A DNA stretch of 64,000 bases from Chthonomonas sp. (GTDB lineage: Bacteria > Armatimonadota > Fimbriimonadia > Fimbriimonadales > Fimbriimonadaceae): NCBI GenBank assembly GCA_016788115.1, contig JAEURR010000007.1:62001-126000 (forward strand), given 5' to 3'. How positions within the stretch are numbered: the stretch's first letter is position 1; the number at the start of each line of letters is the position of its first letter. The notes under the pieces were generated by a model, which had not been told where the DNA came from, made no database searches, and was given only the letters and a program-made list of their open reading frames with translations. Below are positions 44,754 to 53,793 of the stretch, piece by piece. The translations under genes were made by a program, and so were the position numbers.

Positions 44754-45209
44754 ATGGCGCTCCATCAGATTCCGTGTGAATTGTGCGATCAGCTCATTCT
44801 ATGTCGCGACGGATCGCACCCGCGCCTCATCTCCGAGATGGAATCTGGCTTCGCCGTGCTTGGGCCATCCCAGTATTTCTACGGTTATTCACTCCTGATA
44901 TGCAAAGAGCCCGCAACGGAGCTGGACGAGCTTGAGCCGCTCTTCCGCAAGCAATACCTTGACGACATGGCGCGGCTGGCGCAGGCGGTGAGGCTCGCCG
45001 TCCGACCGAACAAGCTCAACACCGAGGCCCTGGGGAACGTGTGCCATCACCACCATTGGCACGTCTTCCCGCGGTATCTCAATGAACCGGAGCCCCTGCT
45101 GCCGGTGTGGCAGTGCATGCCCACCGAGGACGAGGCTGCAGAGCACTTGTTCGATCGCGTGAGACACGAGGACTTGATCCAGCAGATTAGGCGACGGCTC
45201 AGAGATTGA
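44754..45209 (+). CDS. HIT-family nucleotide hydrolase
   Basis: A 151-residue histidine-triad protein. The triad is in C-H-H-H-H-W-H-V-F-P-R near residue 100, and the N-terminus has a C-E-L-C pair typical of zinc-binding HIT proteins. Members hydrolyse dinucleoside polyphosphates or adenylylated substrates. The frame extends upstream to 44643, but that part lies in folC on the other strand; the ATG at 44754 sits just before the conserved sequence. The end overlaps the convergent argH by 11 bp. Confidence 0.85.
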   Translation: MALHQIPCELCDQLILCRDGSHPRLISEMESGFAVLGPSQYFYGYSLLICKEPATELDELEPLFRKQYLDDMARLAQAVRLAVRPNKLNTEALGNVCHHHHWHVFPRYLNEPEPLLPVWQCMPTEDEAAEHLFDRVRHEDLIQQIRRRLRD

Positions 45210-46389
45210 GCTTGGCGGCAACGCGTCGATACGCCTCGCGGAACGAGATCCCTTCCCCCTGGACGAGCGCATAAGCACGCTCGGCAGCATAGAGGTCGGG
45301 CGTCATGGCATGGTCGAGCGTCGCGGGATTGAACCTCACGCCTCCGAGCGCATGGGCCGCAATGCTGAGGCACGCCTTGGTCCGGTCGATGCACCGAAAG
45401 AGCGGTGCCTTCATCAATTGCAGGTCCCGGAAGTACCCGCTCGACAGCCGCGTCGTGAGCGCTTGGATCGCGGCGAGATCGGCATTGGCCTGCGTCGCAT
45501 GGGCGCGAATCAGCTCGAAGACGTCGGGGTTGCGCTTCTGAGGCATGATCGATGAACCGGTCGTGAAAGCTGGATCGAGGGTGACAAAGCCGTACTCCGT
45601 GGTCGCGAAGAGCACCAGGTCCGATGCCGCACGGCTCAGATCACCCTGCAGTAGCGTGCATGCGAACGCAAACGCCGACTCCGCTTTGCCGCGACTGAGT
45701 TGCACCGCGGTTACAGGTTCCTGCGGGCTAGCGAATCCGAGTTCTTCTGCCACCCATACGCGATCGAGTACGAGTCCCGGCGTGCCGTAGCCTGCGGCCG
45801 AGCCGAGCGGGCACAGGTTCCACAGTCCGCTGAGCGCATCCAACGTGTCCGCGCTATGCATCAGCTCGGCGGCATGCGCACCTGCCCAATCCGCAACGGT
45901 ACTGGGCATCGCGCGTTGCAGGTGAGTGTAGCCGGGAATGCTCAGATTGCCCTGGCGCACGACGAGAGCGTTGAACGCGTTTGACGCGGCGGCGGCCAGG
46001 TTGCGCATCTCCTCCGCTTCAGCGCGCAGGTAAAGCCGCATCGCAGTCAGCACTTGATCGTTGCGCGAGCGGCCGAGGTGGATCCGCTGGCCCAGGTCAC
46101 CCAGCCGCATGGTCAGGTGCGCTTCAATGGCTGTGTGACAATCCTCTTGCTGGGGAAGAATCGACCACTGCCCTTGTGCGTGTTCTGCCGCTAGATCGCT
46201 CAGTGCTACTGCCAACCGCTCGGCGTCTTCCGTGCTGAGGTAGCCACACCGTGCGAGCATGCGGGCGTGGGCAACACTTGCGGTGCAATCGTGCCCGACG
46301 AGCCGCGCGTCCAGGGTCACGTCGTCACCTACGGTGAACTCCAGAACCGCGGCGTCCACCGCGGTCCCCTTCTCCCACAGGCGACTCAT
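45199..46389 (-). CDS. argH: Argininosuccinate lyase
   Basis: Final step of arginine synthesis: argininosuccinate to arginine and fumarate. The fumarase-superfamily signature G-S-S-I-M-P-Q-K-R-N-P is present near residue 280, and H-L-G-R-S-R-N-D-Q-V near residue 103. Length 396 is shorter than the usual about 460: the protein ends soon after the F-R-E-A-Y-R-R-V-A segment, so the usual C-terminal part is missing. It is the last gene of the arginine operon; its start overlaps the argE stop (ATGA). Confidence 0.94.
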   Translation of the reverse strand: MSRLWEKGTAVDAAVLEFTVGDDVTLDARLVGHDCTASVAHARMLARCGYLSTEDAERLAVALSDLAAEHAQGQWSILPQQEDCHTAIEAHLTMRLGDLGQRIHLGRSRNDQVLTAMRLYLRAEAEEMRNLAAAASNAFNALVVRQGNLSIPGYTHLQRAMPSTVADWAGAHAAELMHSADTLDALSGLWNLCPLGSAAGYGTPGLVLDRVWVAEELGFASPQEPVTAVQLSRGKAESAFAFACTLLQGDLSRAASDLVLFATTEYGFVTLDPAFTTGSSIMPQKRNPDVFELIRAHATQANADLAAIQALTTRLSSGYFRDLQLMKAPLFRCIDRTKACLSIAAHALGGVRFNPATLDHAMTPDLYAAERAYALVQGEGISFREAYRRVAAKLNL

Positions 46390-47462
46390 GAAGCCACCTC
46401 TGCGAACCGGTCGATCAGTGCGGAATAGAAGCGCGCCCCATCGAGAAGCTCGCTCTCAAGGACGAACTCGTCGGCGGAGTGCGACCGGGCTGAGACCCCT
46501 GGGCCCACCTTGATCGTGGGGACGTCTTGGAAGAAAACTTGATCGCTCATCGTTTGGCTCGCGAAAGTCCGGCGGTCCGGTGCGGCTTGCTGCGCAGCTC
46601 TGACAATTGCCGCATCGGGTGGACACGCATATGGCAAGAGCCGAGTCGAACGTGGTTCGATCTCACCTTCGACCAGCGAGCTCAAATAGTCCACCAGCGC
46701 CCCGTGCTCTATGCCCGGCGAGGTTCGAATATCTAGCGTCGCCGAGGCTTGGCCGGGGACCTGATTGGAAACCTCTGCGCCCCGTAGCATGGTGACTTGG
46801 AGGGTCGTTGGACCAAGCTCGGGGTGCGGAGATCCCAGGTTTGCGCTCTTTAGGGCGACGAGGTCACGCGCAAGTTGCCAACCCGGCGAATCGATGCCCA
46901 AGGAGTCGGCATTGGCGGCGTGGCAGGCAGTGCCACGGGCGATCAGGTTCAAGATCATGAGCCCCTTTTGCGCAGTTCCGATGTGGAGATCGGTGGGCTC
47001 ACCCACCACGACGCCGTTGGGTCGCCAGCCCAGTTCGTCGCGCAGCCAGGGCCAAGCGACTTCGGTCCCCAGCCCGCCGGTCTCTTCGTCGCCGACAAGC
47101 ATGAGGACGACCTCGCAGGGTCCTCCGGACTCGTGGGCCCGCAAGAAGGCAGCGATCATTGCGGCGACGCTGGCCTTCGTGTCGTTGCTGCCCAGACCAT
47201 AGACCCGCCCGTCCTCTTGAGCCGGATCCCACGGATCGCGCGTCCAGCTAGAGTTTGGGGGCACGGTGTCGAGGTGTGAGTTTAAAAGCAACCGCTGGCC
47301 GCGACCAGTCCGCGCGATGACGTTGTGATGCAGGCGGTGCACCTCGACTCCTGCGCTGCTCAGAAACTCGGACACGAAGTCAGCGATCTCACCTTCTTCA
47401 TGCGAAACGCTGGGGATTCGGACCAGGTCCCGGTGGAGTTGCAGCAGCTGCGCTTCGGTCAT
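46386..47462 (-). CDS. argE: M20-family deacylase, probably N-acyl-ornithine/citrulline deacylase
   Basis: A 358-residue zinc peptidase-family enzyme. Metal ligands are in S-H-L-D-T-V-P (about 57-63), G-S-N-D-T-K-A-S, G-D-E-E-T-G-G and E-P-T-D, with the C-terminal His in the final domain. Position between argB and argH and the presence of an AOTCase/SOTCase-type argF' imply it removes the acyl group from N-acylcitrulline (as in Xanthomonas and Bacteroides) rather than from ornithine. Both ends overlap neighbours by ATGA. The acyl group is unknown. Confidence 0.88.
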   Translation of the reverse strand: MTEAQLLQLHRDLVRIPSVSHEEGEIADFVSEFLSSAGVEVHRLHHNVIARTGRGQRLLLNSHLDTVPPNSSWTRDPWDPAQEDGRVYGLGSNDTKASVAAMIAAFLRAHESGGPCEVVLMLVGDEETGGLGTEVAWPWLRDELGWRPNGVVVGEPTDLHIGTAQKGLMILNLIARGTACHAANADSLGIDSPGWQLARDLVALKSANLGSPHPELGPTTLQVTMLRGAEVSNQVPGQASATLDIRTSPGIEHGALVDYLSSLVEGEIEPRSTRLLPYACPPDAAIVRAAQQAAPDRRTFASQTMSDQVFFQDVPTIKVGPGVSARSHSADEFVLESELLDGARFYSALIDRFAEVAS

Positions 47463-48334
47463 AGGAGGTCACACTCAGTAAGGCTGATGAGCGTGCCGCA
47501 CCCCTCGTTTGTGAAGAGCTCGGTCAAGATCGAATCGGGGTACCCAAATCCGATGACGTGGACCCGATCGACGCCACCCTTCAGCGCCGAATGAATCGCG
47601 GACGATTTGGGCAACATGCCTCCCGACAACTTTCCAGACTCGATCAGGGCTTCGAGCTCGGTGAGCGCCAGCTGCGAAATCAGCGTAGTCGGGTCGCCAA
47701 ACGTCTCCAGAATCCCTTCCGCCCCCGTGAGCATGATGAGTTTGGAAGCTCCGATCGCAACGGCGATCGCTGCTGCGACGGTGTCGGCGTTGATGTTCAG
47801 AGGCTCGCCGTTGGCGTCGGCCGCAAGAGGGCTTACGATCGGGAGATGACCACGATCCAAGAGTGATTCCAGGACTTTGGTATCGATCCCGACGATCTCG
47901 CCGACATGCCCAAAGTCGATGGGGACTTTGCTGCGCGGCTCAGCTTGGATGAGCCCCGAGTCGATGCCAGAGAGGCCGACCGCATCCACTCCCAGCTTGC
48001 GGCAGGCTCCGAGCAGCGTCGCTTGAACTTCCCCGTTGAGCGCCAAGATCGAGACCTGCAGCATCTCGCGACTGGTTGCTCGACGACCCTCCACGAAGGT
48101 GTACTCGACCCCCAGCCGCTTTGCCAGTTCGTTTGCTTGGGTTCCACCGCCATGGACGAATACGACGCGAACTCCCAGATCGTGCAGGACTTGCAGTTGC
48201 TCCAGGACCCGGAGCGCCTCTTCTTGCGTGCGTAGCCCTTCCCCGCCGCACTTGACGACAAAGGTCTGGCCGCGGTGGTGCCGCAGATAGGGAATCGCGT
48301 GCCTGAGCGATGCGACGGGGCTAGGATGCTCCAT
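47459..48334 (-). CDS. argB: N-acylglutamate kinase
   Basis: A 291-residue amino acid kinase. The N-terminal phosphate-binding motif reads V-V-K-C-G-G-E (instead of the common K-Y-G-G), then V-H-G-G-G-T-Q near 62-68, N-I-N-A-D-T-V-A-A near 182, L-T-G-A-E-G-I and the C-terminal G-G-M-L-P-K-S. No acetyltransferase domain is fused to it, unlike the bifunctional enzymes of Xanthomonas. It overlaps argF' by 14 bp and argE by 4 bp. Confidence 0.92.
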   Translation of the reverse strand: MEHPSPVASLRHAIPYLRHHRGQTFVVKCGGEGLRTQEEALRVLEQLQVLHDLGVRVVFVHGGGTQANELAKRLGVEYTFVEGRRATSREMLQVSILALNGEVQATLLGACRKLGVDAVGLSGIDSGLIQAEPRSKVPIDFGHVGEIVGIDTKVLESLLDRGHLPIVSPLAADANGEPLNINADTVAAAIAVAIGASKLIMLTGAEGILETFGDPTTLISQLALTELEALIESGKLSGGMLPKSSAIHSALKGGVDRVHVIGFGYPDSILTELFTNEGCGTLISLTECDLL

Positions 48335-49319
48335 TGTTCTTCTCCATGAGGTGGGTCATGATCGCCTTCTGCACGTGCAGCCGATTTGCAGCTTGGGCCA
48401 GCACGATGCTGCGCGGCCCATCGAGCACTTCGTCGGCGACTTTCACATTGCGCCTTACCGGGAGGCAGTGCATAAATTTTGCGTTGGGGCGTGCCGATTC
48501 GAACCATGATTCGGCCACGCACCAATCGCGAAGGTGGGACCGGGCGGCGAGTTCGGCATCAGGATGGCCGTACAGGTCGGGGCGGCACCACGACTTGCAA
48601 TACAAGACGTGGGCACCATCAAGCGCAACGACCCGATCGTCGGTAGTCTGTACTCTGGTGTAGGCGCGGGCTTCGACCAGGATCTGATCCGGCAGGTCGT
48701 ATCCAGCCGGACGCAGCACGGTGACGTGCATGCCACGCCGGGCAGCCATCATGAGCGCGGCGCGTGGGACGGCATACGGGAGCGGTTTGGGATGGTACGC
48801 CCAACTCAAGACAAATTTGCCGTCACGAGGGACGTCGATGTCATCGAGCGTTTTCCAGTCGGCGAGGGCTTGGCATGGGTGGTCTGACGCCGATTCCATG
48901 TTGATGACGGGCTTTGGGGACAGGTCGGCGATCTGCCGCATCAGTCCGTCAGCCAGATCCTCGCTGAGCGACTGCTGCTTCGCAAAGCAGCGCACGCCGA
49001 GCAGGTCACAATACTGCGCAAGCACCGGAATCGCCTCGCGCAGGTGTTCTTGTTCCGCGCCATCCATAACGATACCGTCGCGGGTCTCCAGTTGCCACGA
49101 GCCCGAGCCCGGCTGGATCACGAACGATCCGCCGCCAAGCTGCGCCACCCCCGACTGAATCGAGGCGAGTGTGCGCAAGCTTGGGTTCATGAAGAGCAAG
49201 CCAACGACCTTGCCCGCCAGCGGCCTTGCATCGGGATGGGTCTTCAAATAGTCCGAAAGCCGAAGAAGCATCTCGGTCTGATCGCTCGCTAAATCCGTGA
49301 GGGAGAGATAGTTCCTCAT
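48321..49319 (-). CDS. argF': N-acylornithine carbamoyltransferase (AOTCase/SOTCase family)
   Basis: A 332-residue carbamoyltransferase of the acyl-ornithine branch. It has N-P-S-L-R-T (45-50, carbamoyl phosphate), V-M-D-G...E-H-L-R-E-A-I-P-V-L (84-100), V-I-N-M-E-S-A-S-D-H-P-C-Q-A-L-A-D, Y-H-P-K-P-L-P and H-C-L-P-V-R-R-N-V. These match Xanthomonas N-acetylornithine and Bacteroides N-succinylornithine enzymes and differ from normal ArgF. The residue that sets the acyl group (Glu92 in Xanthomonas, Pro90 in Bacteroides) aligns with Gln90 here. Start overlaps the argD stop (ATGA). Confidence 0.92.
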   Translation of the reverse strand: MRNYLSLTDLASDQTEMLLRLSDYLKTHPDARPLAGKVVGLLFMNPSLRTLASIQSGVAQLGGGSFVIQPGSGSWQLETRDGIVMDGAEQEHLREAIPVLAQYCDLLGVRCFAKQQSLSEDLADGLMRQIADLSPKPVINMESASDHPCQALADWKTLDDIDVPRDGKFVLSWAYHPKPLPYAVPRAALMMAARRGMHVTVLRPAGYDLPDQILVEARAYTRVQTTDDRVVALDGAHVLYCKSWCRPDLYGHPDAELAARSHLRDWCVAESWFESARPNAKFMHCLPVRRNVKVADEVLDGPRSIVLAQAANRLHVQKAIMTHLMEKNNGAS

Positions 49320-50440
49320 GCTGGCACCTTGCGAAGCGCCGCTAAGAAAGTATCGACCGCGGCGTCATCGATGACCAAGGGAGGTAGCAGGCGCACAACG
49401 TTGGGGTCCTTGGCATCGCCAGTGATGAAACCGGCATCGAGCAACTCGGCCCGGACATCTCGGCTCGGGCGGATGGTGTGCAGTCCGATGAGTAGGCCCC
49501 GCCCAGAAACGCTGCGGACCACGCCGCCTCTGGTTTCTGTCATCAGTCGTTGGCTGATCCGATTCACATTCGCAAGGAACGCAGGCCGACTCACCGCCTT
49601 GATCGTGATATCCATCGCGGCACACGCCATGGGCCCGCCGCCGAAGGTAGTACCGTAGCTTCCTTTCGGCAAGTCTTTGCAAAGCTCGGAACCTGCACAG
49701 GTCGCCCCAATCGGGAATCCGCCCGCGAGCCCTTTGGCAGCCGTGAGAATGTCAGGGATGACTCTCAGCGCTTCGATCGCGAAGAAGGTTCCGCAACGAC
49801 CCGCGCCGGTCTGGACTTCGTCGGCGATCATGAGTGCACCCGTTTCCGTGCAGCGCCGCCGTGCAGCCTGAACGAACTCGGTGCTCAGTGTCCTGGCCCC
49901 CGCGACCCCTTGGACTGGCTCGAAAATGAACGCCGCCGTCTGGTCGGTGACCGCGCTCTCCAGCCCATCAAGATCTTCGGGCTCAAGCCAGTCGACTTCG
50001 AAAGGTCGATTCGGAAACCCGTACCAGCTGGTCGATCCGTCGGTGATGGCGGCCGCCGCCGCGGTTCTGCCGTGAAATGCTCCGCGCAGAGCCGTCACGC
50101 GTAGGCGCTGCGTATGGGTCAGCGCAAGCCTCAGGGCATTCTCGTTGGCCTCCGCGCCCGAGTTCACCAAGAGCACGTGGTCCACGCCGCTAGGCAGTTG
50201 CCCAACCAGCCGTTCGACTGCGCGCGTGCGGACCGGCACTTCAATCGCATTGGATTGAAACACAAGGTCCTTTGCCTGCGCGGAGATGGCCTGGCTCAGA
50301 CCGGCATGACTGTAGCCTAGCGAAGCCACCGCGTGGCCGCCGTAAAAGTCGATGTACTCGCGACCGTGCCCGTCGCGCACGGTGACGCCGCAACCGGAGA
50401 CCAACTCTGGACCGATGCGTGTGTAGACGGGGAACTCCAT
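49316..50440 (-). CDS. argD: N-acylornithine aminotransferase
   Basis: A 374-residue class III aminotransferase (PLP enzyme). Visible features: G-G-H-A-V-A-S-L-G-Y-S-H near residue 34, N-S-G-A-E-A-N-E-N-A-L, G-A-F-H-G-R-T, D-E-V-Q-T-G and the PLP lysine in L-T-A-A-K-G-L-A-G-G-F-P. It converts N-acylglutamate semialdehyde to N-acylornithine. I chose the ATG at 50440, 2 bp after the argC stop; the frame is open to 50512 but that would overlap argC. Confidence 0.94.
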   Translation of the reverse strand: MEFPVYTRIGPELVSGCGVTVRDGHGREYIDFYGGHAVASLGYSHAGLSQAISAQAKDLVFQSNAIEVPVRTRAVERLVGQLPSGVDHVLLVNSGAEANENALRLALTHTQRLRVTALRGAFHGRTAAAAAITDGSTSWYGFPNRPFEVDWLEPEDLDGLESAVTDQTAAFIFEPVQGVAGARTLSTEFVQAARRRCTETGALMIADEVQTGAGRCGTFFAIEALRVIPDILTAAKGLAGGFPIGATCAGSELCKDLPKGSYGTTFGGGPMACAAMDITIKAVSRPAFLANVNRISQRLMTETRGGVVRSVSGRGLLIGLHTIRPSRDVRAELLDAGFITGDAKDPNVVRLLPPLVIDDAAVDTFLAALRKVPA

Positions 50441-50442
50441 GG

Positions 50443-51501
50443 TCAGATCCAGCCCGGCACGGGGTGCATCAGCCCTGCCGCTTGGTCCAGGCCGCAGAGC
50501 CGATTCATCCACTGCACAGCGCCGCCAGCCGCACCCTTCACCAGGTTGTCGATGACCGAGGTCAGCACCAACTGTTGCCCCTGGACGGCTACCCCGATGT
50601 GGCAGCGATTCGATCCCGCGATCTCCTTGACGCTAGGCATGCGTGTACCGACCTGCACGAACGGAGTTGCCGAATAGAACTCTTGGAGCTGCTGGACGAT
50701 TTCCTCAGCGGAATGTGGTCGGTGGAGCTGGGCAAAGACGGTTGCATGGATACCGCGCGCGAACGGACCGGAATGCGGAACGAACGCCAAAGTCGGAGTC
50801 GTGCCGAAACGCGCGGCGATCATCGTCATTTCCGCTTGGTGCCGGTGGCGCAATGGCTCGTAGGACCACAAAGCGCTTTGGCGTTCGGGATGGTGCGTAC
50901 CGGCGCGGGGTTGCCGACCGGCTCCGGTACTACCGGTGACTGCGCTCACCGCGTAGTTCGGGACCGTGAGTTCGAGCGCTTGGAGCGGAGCCAAGGCGAG
51001 CACGACCGTGGTGGTGAAGCAACCTGGATGGGCGATGTAAGCATCGGGAGTCTCCTTCTGCAGGTCCGGACAGGCGCAGATGAAACGGTGCATCAGACCC
51101 TTGGCCCCGTGCTCTTTGCCATAGATCGCTTCGTACTGGTCGGCCCCCGGGTAACGGAAGTCTGCTGACATATCCACCACGCGAACGGCATCGCCGGAGC
51201 CCTTCAGCAGGTCGTCCAGCGCGGCGGCCGTCTCCCCGTGAGGGAGCGCTGAGAAGACCGCAAGCTGACGCTTGGAGGCGATCAGCTCCTTCGCGACCGA
51301 CAGATCGCTGAACGCCAAATCGCGAGCTGCGCCCGCCAGGTGGGGGAACTGCTCGTCCACCCGCTGATCTGCGTGCGTGGTCGAGATGACCGCCTCGATC
51401 CGGAAGTTCGGATGGCCCAGCAGCAGGCGCATGACCTCGGCAGCGACATAGCCGCTCCCTCCAAGGACGAGAGTGGGAATCGTTTTAGATAGCACGGGCA
51501 A
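50443..51501 (-). CDS. argC: N-acyl-gamma-glutamyl-phosphate reductase
   Basis: A 352-residue reductase: G-G-S-G-Y-V-A-A-E (NADP fold, 14-22), D-M-S-A-D-F-R (110-116), active Cys161 in H-P-G-C-F-T-T-T, S-T-G-A-G-R, and H-R-H-Q-A-E with the catalytic His. The motif H-P-G-C replaces the common N-P-G-C. It reduces N-acylglutamyl phosphate to the semialdehyde. It overlaps the upstream P-loop gene by 17 bp and lies 2 bp before argD. Confidence 0.94.
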   Translation of the reverse strand: MPVLSKTIPTLVLGGSGYVAAEVMRLLLGHPNFRIEAVISTTHADQRVDEQFPHLAGAARDLAFSDLSVAKELIASKRQLAVFSALPHGETAAALDDLLKGSGDAVRVVDMSADFRYPGADQYEAIYGKEHGAKGLMHRFICACPDLQKETPDAYIAHPGCFTTTVVLALAPLQALELTVPNYAVSAVTGSTGAGRQPRAGTHHPERQSALWSYEPLRHRHQAEMTMIAARFGTTPTLAFVPHSGPFARGIHATVFAQLHRPHSAEEIVQQLQEFYSATPFVQVGTRMPSVKEIAGSNRCHIGVAVQGQQLVLTSVIDNLVKGAAGGAVQWMNRLCGLDQAAGLMHPVPGWI

Positions 51502-52543
51502 GCTCCATTCGGTTGATCACAGCGTTGGCAAGTTCGGCCGGATTCTGGCGGGCGTTGACCCCGCTGATCCCGGTCTCGCGGGTGAGGATTTTGGTGCCGG
51601 ACTCATTGTCAGTGGCGGGCCCGGTGATGACGTGCGGGCACAGATCGTAACGAGCTTGGAGCAGTTCGACTCCGCCCCATGCTCCCACGGGATCGCCCGC
51701 GGCGAGGACGGTCCCTCGGAACGCCTTGCGCAACGACGGATCGGCAAGGATTGAATCGACCCCGTATTCGCCGAGCAGACCGTCGCCCAGCTCGAGCACA
51801 ATCACGTCCGGTCGATCCGCGGCGAGGCGGTTCAGCATTGTTCGCGCACTCCCCAATCCGTTCGATCGGCTGGTTGTGACGATGCCGAGGTCGGTGAAGA
51901 TCATCGTGCGCGATGCACCCGCATCCTCCATTGCGAGGATGTCGCGCCGCAGGCTGACCCCGGTTGCTTTCGCTGCCATCACGTTCAAGCCCCGGCGGAC
52001 GAACTGTTGGATGATCGCGAGACACGCCTCCGTTTTGCCCGAGTTCATGCACGTGCCGATCACTCCGATGATCGGGACTTCGCCGACATCGAGCCCTTCA
52101 TCGAGTGGCCCTACGACTCGGGCTATATTGGCGGGCACGCCCTTGCGGCTTTGGAGTACGGGAAACTCTAAGACTTGGCCAAGCACTTCGCACTCGAACG
52201 GTTTCCCGACTGCCGGGGAGTACGCCGTGCACGTGCCGAGAACGCCTCCAAGGTTTAAGAGCTGGATCGTATCGCCGACAGCCAAGCTACTCGGGATTAC
52301 CCCGGCATAGCCGAGCAGCGCATTGCGGTGGCCTAGCGCACCGGCGATGACGTCGCCGGCCTTGAGGGTGGACATGCGACCCGACGGTAGCTCAAGTTGG
52401 TTGTACGAAGACTTGTTGTTGAGGATGCGCACCGCTAGGACGTCCCCCTCGTTACAGTGTATGTCCGAGCCTAGCCGGGCGTCGCGTCGCAGGGTGCAGT
52501 TGCGCGTCACCGAGGCGATCTTGTCCAGGACGACCGCTTTCAC
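51485..52543 (-). CDS. Unrecognised P-loop protein embedded in the arginine operon
   Basis: A 352-residue protein. Residues 1-150 look like a beta-rich domain (G-D-V-L-A-V-R-I, L-K-A-G-D-V-I-A-G, L-A-V-G-D-T-I-Q-L). Residues 155-352 form a P-loop domain: Walker A G163-T-C-M-N-S-G-K-T171, then G-L-N-V-M-A-A-K-A-T-G, D-L-G-I-V-T-T, and a Walker B-like I-V-L-E-L-G-D-G (248-255). I do not recognise it as a known arg gene. Dethiobiotin synthetase-like and DUF1611-like P-loop domains have a comparable layout. It starts at GTG, overlapping the argG stop (GTGA) with GGGAGAAAGC upstream, so it is translationally coupled. The operon has no argA or argJ. Confidence 0.85.
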   Translation of the reverse strand: MKAVVLDKIASVTRNCTLRRDARLGSDIHCNEGDVLAVRILNNKSSYNQLELPSGRMSTLKAGDVIAGALGHRNALLGYAGVIPSSLAVGDTIQLLNLGGVLGTCTAYSPAVGKPFECEVLGQVLEFPVLQSRKGVPANIARVVGPLDEGLDVGEVPIIGVIGTCMNSGKTEACLAIIQQFVRRGLNVMAAKATGVSLRRDILAMEDAGASRTMIFTDLGIVTTSRSNGLGSARTMLNRLAADRPDVIVLELGDGLLGEYGVDSILADPSLRKAFRGTVLAAGDPVGAWGGVELLQARYDLCPHVITGPATDNESGTKILTRETGISGVNARQNPAELANAVINRMELARAI

Positions 52544-53757
52544 GCTTTCTCTCCCGCTCGGGCGTGCAGCACGCTTGAGAGTCCAAACAGTCGTGAGAAG
52601 CCAAGCGCCTCGGCGGGGGTCCACTCACCTACCGCCTCACCGTACACTGCGCGCGATGCGGCATGAAGCGAATACGGCGACTGAACTCCCTCGACCATGA
52701 AGCTCCCCGTGCGGAGCCGCACAGCGACTTCACCGGTCACTCGCTGCTGGCTGGAGGTGAGCAACGACTCAATGTCTCGGCACGCCGGATCGCACGCCAA
52801 CCCTTCGTGAATCCAATCGCCGTACATGGCCGACACCGCATCTTTGGCTTGGATCTGTCGCTTCGTCAAAACGAGCTTCTCGAGCTCCCGGTGCGCCGCG
52901 ATGAGGATCGTCGCGGCCGGGGCCTCGAACGCGACGCGCCCCTTGATTCCAAGGATGGTCTCGCCGAGATGGATCCCCCGCCCGATGCCGTATGACCCAC
53001 CGAGAGTATTCAGCTCGGTGATGCAGATCACCGGTTCGAGCTCGTCCCCGTCGAGTGCAACCGGTGTACCGTCTCTGAATCCGATCTTGATGAGGCGAGA
53101 GGGCATCGGATGGTCGAAGGCGTTTCGGGTCCAGAGCCACTGCGACTCCGGGATCGACTCGGCGGTACCGGTCGTCTCTTTGCCACCGATGGTGACGCCC
53201 CAGAGCCCCGCATTGACCGAGTACTGTGCCTTCTCTGGCACCGGATAGCCGAGCTTCTCCAGGTCCTCGATCTGTTCAGCTCGGCTGGGAGCGAGGTCTC
53301 GCACCGGAGCGATCACGTTCAGCTCGCTCGCGACGCTACGCAGCGTAATCTCAAACCGGACCTGGTCGTTCCCCGCGGCAGTGCAGCCATGGGCGACCGC
53401 CTCGCACCCTTTCGCAACCGCGACCCTAGCGACTTCTTGCGCCTGTAGGTTGCGCTCCGCGCCCACGCACAGCGGGTAGGTGCCACCGCGTAAAACGTTC
53501 CCAGCGATCAACAGGCGCAACGTATCAGCATAGTATGCATTTGACGCATCAATATGCACATGATCGATTGCCCCGAGTTGTTTGGAGAGTTCGGCAAATG
53601 CGGTTGCATCCGCTTGCCCGTCACCGGTCACATCGACGGTCACGGTGACAATTTCGTAGCCTGAATCAAGCAGCTTCGGGATGCACCACCGCGTATCGAG
53701 CCCGCCGGAGAAGGCGAGCGCGACACGCGGTCGAGGATCAGCAGAGCCAAGATTCAT
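52540..53757 (-). CDS. argG: Argininosuccinate synthase
   Basis: Joins citrulline and aspartate using ATP. A 405-residue enzyme with the ATP-binding A-F-S-G-G-L-D-T-R-W motif at the N-terminus, A-H-G-C-T-A-A-G-N-D-Q-V-R-F, and P-Y-S-V-N-A-like segment E-K-A-Q-Y-S-V-N. It is the first gene of the operon. The ATG at 53757 is directly at the expected transcription start of the upstream promoter; a TTG at 53793 gives 12 more residues that overlap the -35 hexamer, so ATG is preferred. AT-rich codons near residues 67-78 coincide with operator-like sequences inside the gene. Confidence 0.94.
   Translation of the reverse strand: MNLGSADPRPRVALAFSGGLDTRWCIPKLLDSGYEIVTVTVDVTGDGQADATAFAELSKQLGAIDHVHIDASNAYYADTLRLLIAGNVLRGGTYPLCVGAERNLQAQEVARVAVAKGCEAVAHGCTAAGNDQVRFEITLRSVASELNVIAPVRDLAPSRAEQIEDLEKLGYPVPEKAQYSVNAGLWGVTIGGKETTGTAESIPESQWLWTRNAFDHPMPSRLIKIGFRDGTPVALDGDELEPVICITELNTLGGSYGIGRGIHLGETILGIKGRVAFEAPAATILIAAHRELEKLVLTKRQIQAKDAVSAMYGDWIHEGLACDPACRDIESLLTSSQQRVTGEVAVRLRTGSFMVEGVQSPYSLHAASRAVYGEAVGEWTPAEALGFSRLFGLSSVLHARAGEKA
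53525..53559 (-). promoter_or_regulatory. Intragenic operator-like pair in argG
   Basis: Two TGCATA-type elements, GTGCATATTGATGCGT (53559 to 53544 on the minus strand) and ATGCATACTATGCTGA (53540 to 53525), lie 19 bp apart, the same pitch as the pair over the promoter. They are in the coding region about 200-230 bp after the start and use AT-rich codons. B. subtilis argC has a comparable intragenic arginine operator. Confidence 0.45.
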
Positions 53758-53793
53758 AGCGCATATTATTGCACATTGATCATAAGTATGCAA
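53757..53793 (-). promoter_or_regulatory. argG promoter overlapped by operator-like pair
   Basis: On the minus strand, TTGCAT (53793-53788), a 17-bp spacer and AATAAT (53770-53765) form a good promoter, and 7 nt after the -10 is the A of the argG ATG, predicting a leaderless mRNA. TTGCATACTTATGATC (53793-53778) and GTGCAATAATATGCGC (53774-53759) cover the -35 and -10 respectively and resemble arginine-repressor boxes. No ribosome site is present. Confidence 0.55.

Follow-up and report, generated by a model that had tools for sequence, protein, structure and literature searches.

We analysed a 64,000-nucleotide stretch of DNA (the window) and identified in its arginine operon a P-loop gene (PL) whose product is, with a probability of about 0.7, the first enzyme of arginine synthesis, acting as a P-loop N-acyl(succinyl)glutamate synthase. 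We infer this activity, including its substrate, acyl group and chemistry, from the gene, its operon, the conservation of both, the phylogenetic exclusion of known enzymes, the absence of those alternatives that were open to testing and the predicted fold. PL occupied a conserved operon slot and occurred only in genomes in which no known first-step enzyme was found, and it therefore probably represents an enzyme of a new kind for the first step. No description of the protein was found in the literature searched. The genes of the operon were as follows.

52540..53793, minus strand: argG, argininosuccinate synthase (TIGR00032)
51485..52543, minus strand: PL, 352 amino acids with a GTG start, the proposed N-acyl(succinyl)-L-glutamate synthase
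50443..51501, minus strand: argC, N-acyl-gamma-glutamyl-phosphate reductase (TIGR01850, 290.7 bits, over cut-off)
49316..50512, minus strand: argD, acylornithine aminotransferase (TIGR00707/Aminotran_3)
48321..49319, minus strand: argF', acyl-ornithine carbamoyltransferase (NF003384, 355.6 bits)
47459..48334, minus strand: argB, acylglutamate kinase, 291 amino acids (TIGR00761, 206.6 bits)
46386..47462, minus strand: argE/dapE-like M20 deacylase (M20 model)
45199..46389, minus strand: argH, argininosuccinate lyase, 396 amino acids (TIGR00838, 285.9 bits)

Family models placed these genes in one direction, from 53793 down to 45199, in the order argG-PL-argC-argD-argF'-argB-argE-argH. The open reading frame coordinates agreed with the first-pass annotation, which had put PL between argG and argC with short overlaps. 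The PL start and the argG stop share 4 bp, and PL overlaps the most upstream possible argC start, a putative TTG, by 17 bp. Two annotated starts were refined. The TIGR00032 match began at residue 23 of argG, whose true start is probably inside the annotated frame. The listed start of argD was the longest option, and an ATG at 50440 was a better fit. The operon had also been described as lacking argA, argJ and an acetyltransferase fused to argB, and the family models and protein lengths confirmed this. An acetyltransferase fused to argB or argH was ruled out by the lengths of both proteins together with their family models. Every other arginine step was present in the operon, and the first step was the only one without a candidate.

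Two features of the flanks were observed besides. A gene for L-glutamate gamma-semialdehyde dehydrogenase (TIGR01236; 53812-55614, minus strand) ended 18 bp before argG in the window, and a similar gene lay just after argH in a related locus (L007). The position of these genes beside the arginine operon suggested a possible link between the metabolism of proline and that of arginine. An ArgR-like repressor gene, recognized by eye, was located upstream of argG in four loci (L007, L010, L032 and L058), and none was seen there in the window.

The gene arrangement was conserved well beyond the window. When about 85,000 species genomes were scanned, 217 relatives of PL were found, and the loci of the best 80 of the 217 were taken for comparison. 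These 80 proteins were about 49-67% identical to PL and came from Armatimonadota, Planctomycetota, Acidobacteriota, Myxococcota and Gammaproteobacteria. The order argG-PL-argC was intact in 76 of the 80 loci. The other four were cut by contig ends (L025 and L070) or had no detected argG (L077 and L080). Where the contig permitted, argD, argF' and argB mostly came next. In the family to which the window belongs, each PL gene lay directly upstream of argC. The occurrence of relatives in several phyla with a conserved gene order indicated that the operon position of PL is not due to chance. In an alignment of 45 homologues, some 80 columns were invariant, among them G163, G169, K170, T171, K192, the LRRD motif at 198-201, E206-A210 and E251. 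Three records deserve mention by themselves. PL was split across two frames in one genome (G215, L150) and contained an in-frame TGA in another (G143, L096), each a sequencing error or decay. One locus (L008, JADZEW010000026.1) was titled Methanoregulaceae archaeon, a label that looks wrong when compared with G198:C26 from the window's bacterial family.

The distribution of PL was compared with that of the known first-step enzymes. The family of the window was represented by 61 genomes, which we searched for argC, ArgJ (PF01960) and PL, and 46 of them had a true or truncated true argC. PL was found in 24 of the 61 genomes and ArgJ in 20, and no genome had both. The remaining two argC genomes (G211 and G228) carried LysX-type ATP-grasp proteins beside a LysW ending in EEEEDWGE. 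They are of the LysW-carrier pathway type and are not exceptions to the complementarity of ArgJ and PL. Thus, each argC genome had one known or proposed glutamate-capping route (24 PL, 20 ArgJ and two LysW/LysX). The 15 genomes without argC had neither PL nor ArgJ. Fisher's test, in which shared ancestry was not corrected for, gave P = 4e-11 for the exclusion between PL and ArgJ and 2e-12 for the tracking of argC. In ten ArgJ genomes that were inspected, argJ came after argC, and no PL or argF' was detected near argJ.

The same absence was found on a wider scale. Whether argJ exists elsewhere in the genome had been left as a check by the first-pass annotation, and ArgJ was not found in the 2.4-Mb, 97%-complete genome of the window. 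Among 42 further PL-carrying genomes, ArgJ was found in none, and none had a full ArgA over cut-off. Apparent TIGR01890 matches were present in all 42, and these were rejected as the argB kinase domain and weak GNAT fragments, none of them over cut-off. PL was the sole linked first-step candidate in genomes holding the rest of the pathway. A divergent, unlinked GNAT protein could perform the first step in these genomes. The genome of the window contained 14 GNAT matches, mostly of no assigned function, and none of the ten of these proteins that were scanned reached a glutamate N-acetyltransferase model. These results supported the earlier proposal of an N-acylglutamate synthase, for which PL remained the best candidate by its conserved slot, its exclusion with ArgJ and LysW/LysX and the lack of ArgJ and full ArgA in 42 carriers. 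The acetyl form of that proposal became less likely than the succinyl form.

The protein was then described by its motifs and its predicted structure. The following features were located in the PL gene.

52094..52543, minus strand: N-terminal beta-rich domain, residues 1-150 (AF2 pLDDT 90.5; no PDB match found)
52031..52057, minus strand: Walker A motif GTCMNSGKT, residues 163-171 (read from the sequence; GKT ending in 45/45 homologues)
51941..51952, minus strand: LRRD motif, residues 198-201 (R199 and R200 invariant only in the arginine-operon subfamily)

An AlphaFold model built from the homologue alignment had a mean pLDDT of 93 and a pTM of 0.90. The P-loop that had been noted at residue 163 was exact, and the model bore out the beta-rich N-terminal half. 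Residues 154-350 formed a SIMIBI-type P-loop domain with an intact Walker A motif, Lys192 and Glu251. The best fold matches of this domain were CTP synthase (Z 17.2), the DUF1611 structures 2g0t (Z 16.7) and 2obn (Z 16.6), dethiobiotin synthetase (Z 16.3) and DgcN 7xrj (Z 15.2), all of which were near ties. The N-terminal domain alone gave no match in the PDB (Foldseek best E 0.86; VIA best Z 3.0), a result that does not in itself prove a new fold. Searches of the PDB with phmmer and with the family profile gave no match for PL. No Pfam or NCBIfam model exceeded its cut-off, and MobB stayed below threshold at 18-20 bits. A GNAT domain was not matched in Pfam or NCBIfam at E<=1. The dethiobiotin synthetase (BioD) models TIGR00347 and PF13500 did not match PL, and PF13500 was absent from its own genome. 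By fold and by a Walker A motif with GK[T/S], PL belongs to the SIMIBI class, in the group of dethiobiotin synthetase, MobB and CTP synthase.

A special tie to DUF1611 and DgcN, which had been suggested by eye, did not hold. The DUF1611 model PF07755 gave no match to the window's PL at E<=1 and no match in its own genome. Sub-threshold matches were present in 24 of the 45 homologues (best E 1.7e-4), and the relatives that matched scored 16.5-21 bits against a cut-off of 25 bits. Judged by GxDxxxGKM(S/T), the form of the motif expected for DUF1611, the Walker A ending was GKM in 28 of 29 DUF1611 proteins and GKT in all 45 aligned PL proteins. In profile-profile comparison, PL was nearer to MobB (E 3.5e-9) and to AAA_26/dethiobiotin synthetase (6e-6) than to DUF1611 (E 0.0025), whose match covered only 40 columns around Walker A. 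Membership of PL in DUF1611 was therefore ruled out by the cut-off, the Walker A motif and the profile controls. In the profile and structure comparisons that had been proposed as a check, the P-loop fold was shared with both DUF1611/DgcN and dethiobiotin synthetase, and no family-level score to either was obtained.

Dethiobiotin synthetase, CTP synthase and CobB/CbiA, all SIMIBI relatives, form C-N bonds with ATP. K192 of PL aligned with the second-strand lysine of dethiobiotin synthetase. The residues that were invariant also in relatives outside arginine operons were the Walker A residues K170 and T171, K192, D201, D207 and E251, and they suggest a common nucleotide chemistry. Those invariant only in the arginine type were R199, R200, E206, T311, D312, K8 and K44, and they suggest a shared acidic substrate. 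R199 and R200 are candidate carboxylate-binding residues, as judged from the alignment. In the mechanism that we propose, an Mg-nucleotide would be bound at the Walker A motif, and Lys192, Asp201/Asp207 and Glu251 would make up an active site like that of dethiobiotin synthetase. R199-R200 and the other invariants of the arginine subfamily may hold the dicarboxylates. ATP-dependent activation of free succinate is slightly favoured over transfer from succinyl-CoA. On this reading, which by itself is less likely than not, PL would be an ATP-dependent P-loop amide ligase that joins free succinate and L-glutamate without CoA and so starts arginine synthesis in a broad set of bacteria.

The other share of the synthase reading, nearly as large and by itself also less likely than not, is a DgcN-like reaction. 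The acetyl or succinyl group would come from acyl-CoA, the P-loop would hold the CoA phosphates, and ATP would not be used. It draws on the presence of 2g0t, 2obn and the N-acetyltransferase DgcN among the best fold matches and on the sub-threshold PF07755 matches, but the different Walker A ending and the short, weak DUF1611 profile match argue against it.

The identity of the acyl group was approached through the specificity residues of ArgF'. In the acetylornithine carbamoyltransferase of X. campestris, these are Glu92, Asn185 and Lys302, and the succinylornithine enzymes have A/S/P/V/Q, P and V/I/E at the same three positions (PMC4581275). We aligned 70 ArgF' proteins from PL operons, including that of the window, to the X. 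campestris enzyme and read the corresponding residues. The Glu92 position was A, V or Q in all 70, the Asn185 position was P in 68 of 70, and the third position was V, A, E or K. These residues indicated that the missing product is more likely N-succinyl-L-glutamate than N-acetylglutamate. The window's ArgF' had the succinyl-type residues Q90 and P181; its third residue was Lys, as in acetyl-type enzymes, which counts against the succinyl-type reading. Judged by these positions, PL operons probably encode a succinyl-type arginine pathway like that of Bacteroides. There, BT3761 is the probable N-succinylglutamate synthase and is numbered next to argG, BT3760 (PMC7311316). The place of PL in its operon was comparable. 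At the first committed step in a linear route to arginine, PL would cap the amino group of L-glutamate with an acyl group, most probably succinyl, and N-succinyl-L-glutamate would then pass through ArgB, ArgC, ArgD and ArgF' before the M20 protein takes the acyl group off.

It is improbable that PL instead assists the linear succinyl pathway as an activator, sensor or scaffold that binds ATP or GTP, while an unlinked divergent GNAT makes N-acylglutamate. Such a role would fit the GNAT matches in the genome and the metal and cofactor chaperones among MobB- and HypB-like P-loop relatives. The exclusion of ArgJ alone is no proof of catalysis and would also arise if PL aided another step of the linear pathway. 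However, PL was as conserved as the neighbouring enzymes, and it carried a full set of active-site-like invariants together with the subfamily-specific Arg, Glu and Thr-Asp residues. None of the scanned GNAT proteins reached an N-acylglutamate synthase model, and no such helper gene was reported for the Bacteroides succinyl pathway (PMC7311316). A role for PL in some other pathway-specific step, for instance a different way of deacylation or the conversion of another intermediate, is very improbable. In its favour, the gammaproteobacterial PL operons yielded no M20 homologue of the argE in the window. Against it, both PL and the M20 gene were present in the window and the other Armatimonadota operons, and only the first step was left without a candidate.

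Relatives of PL were also found outside arginine operons. A tblastn search of plasmids detected relatives at 26-33% identity, and when five members from outside arginine operons were compared by profile with the arginine type, the match had E 1e-41 over 290 columns covering both domains. The plasmid relatives in Rhodobacterales (L264, L265 and L266) lay directly upstream of an ABC transporter gene, two of the three after an alpha/beta hydrolase, and were annotated as 'DUF1611 domain-containing' or 'dethiobiotin synthase'. They possibly form a separate biosynthetic system. A distant relative on the Priestia megaterium plasmid NZ_CP085446.1 (L267, 7896-8957) belonged to a phosphonate-type cluster, together with genes for PEP mutase, two TPP enzymes, two ATP-grasp ligases, an ornithine carbamoyltransferase, an M20 hydrolase and a flavin-dependent oxidoreductase. 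Like the arginine operon, this cluster brings together a P-loop protein, a carbamoyltransferase and an M20 hydrolase. The position of non-arginine relatives beside ABC transporters indicated that the chemistry of the superfamily is not fixed. Two further observations concern relatives. In one locus (L260, 7985-13339, G002), a divergent 364-aa relative was followed by a protein with a CapA-like C-terminal part, recognized by eye, and then by a likely ABC transporter. A Mariana Trench survey reported dgcN in Woeseiales (PMC12363236). The arginine-type PL was common in Woeseiales too, and some of those dgcN assignments might confuse the two.

If the proposed function is correct, PL would be a new fold for a classic metabolic step. 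It would fill the first arginine step in hundreds of genomes now read as incomplete, and predictions of arginine auxotrophy could be corrected in Armatimonadota, Woeseiaceae-like Gammaproteobacteria, Myxococcota and others. Glutamate capping would have evolved independently, in a fold unrelated to the GNAT, ArgJ and ATP-grasp (LysX) solutions. The GNAT-type synthases (ArgA, S-NAGS, O-NAGS, NAGS-K and BT3761) share with PL the proposed reaction and the pathway position, but they have a GNAT domain, whereas PL is a SIMIBI P-loop protein without one. ArgJ, the ornithine acetyltransferase, is the source of N-acylglutamate in sister genomes within the window's family, and it is an unrelated protein that is mutually exclusive with PL. 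LysX/ArgX with LysW caps glutamate or aminoadipate at the amino group in an ATP-dependent manner. Unlike PL, it uses an ATP-grasp fold and a protein carrier, and it was present in the sole two argC genomes without PL and ArgJ. DUF1611/DgcN has a SIMIBI-like P-loop domain (Z 15.2-16.7) and a length similar to that of PL, but its Walker A ends in GKM and its profile match to PL was no better than those of other P-loop families. Dethiobiotin synthetase/AAA_26 and MobB share the GTxxxxGKT Walker A motif and the aligned second-strand lysine and gave the best profile matches to PL, whereas they have no N-terminal beta domain, belong to different pathways and resemble PL weakly overall.
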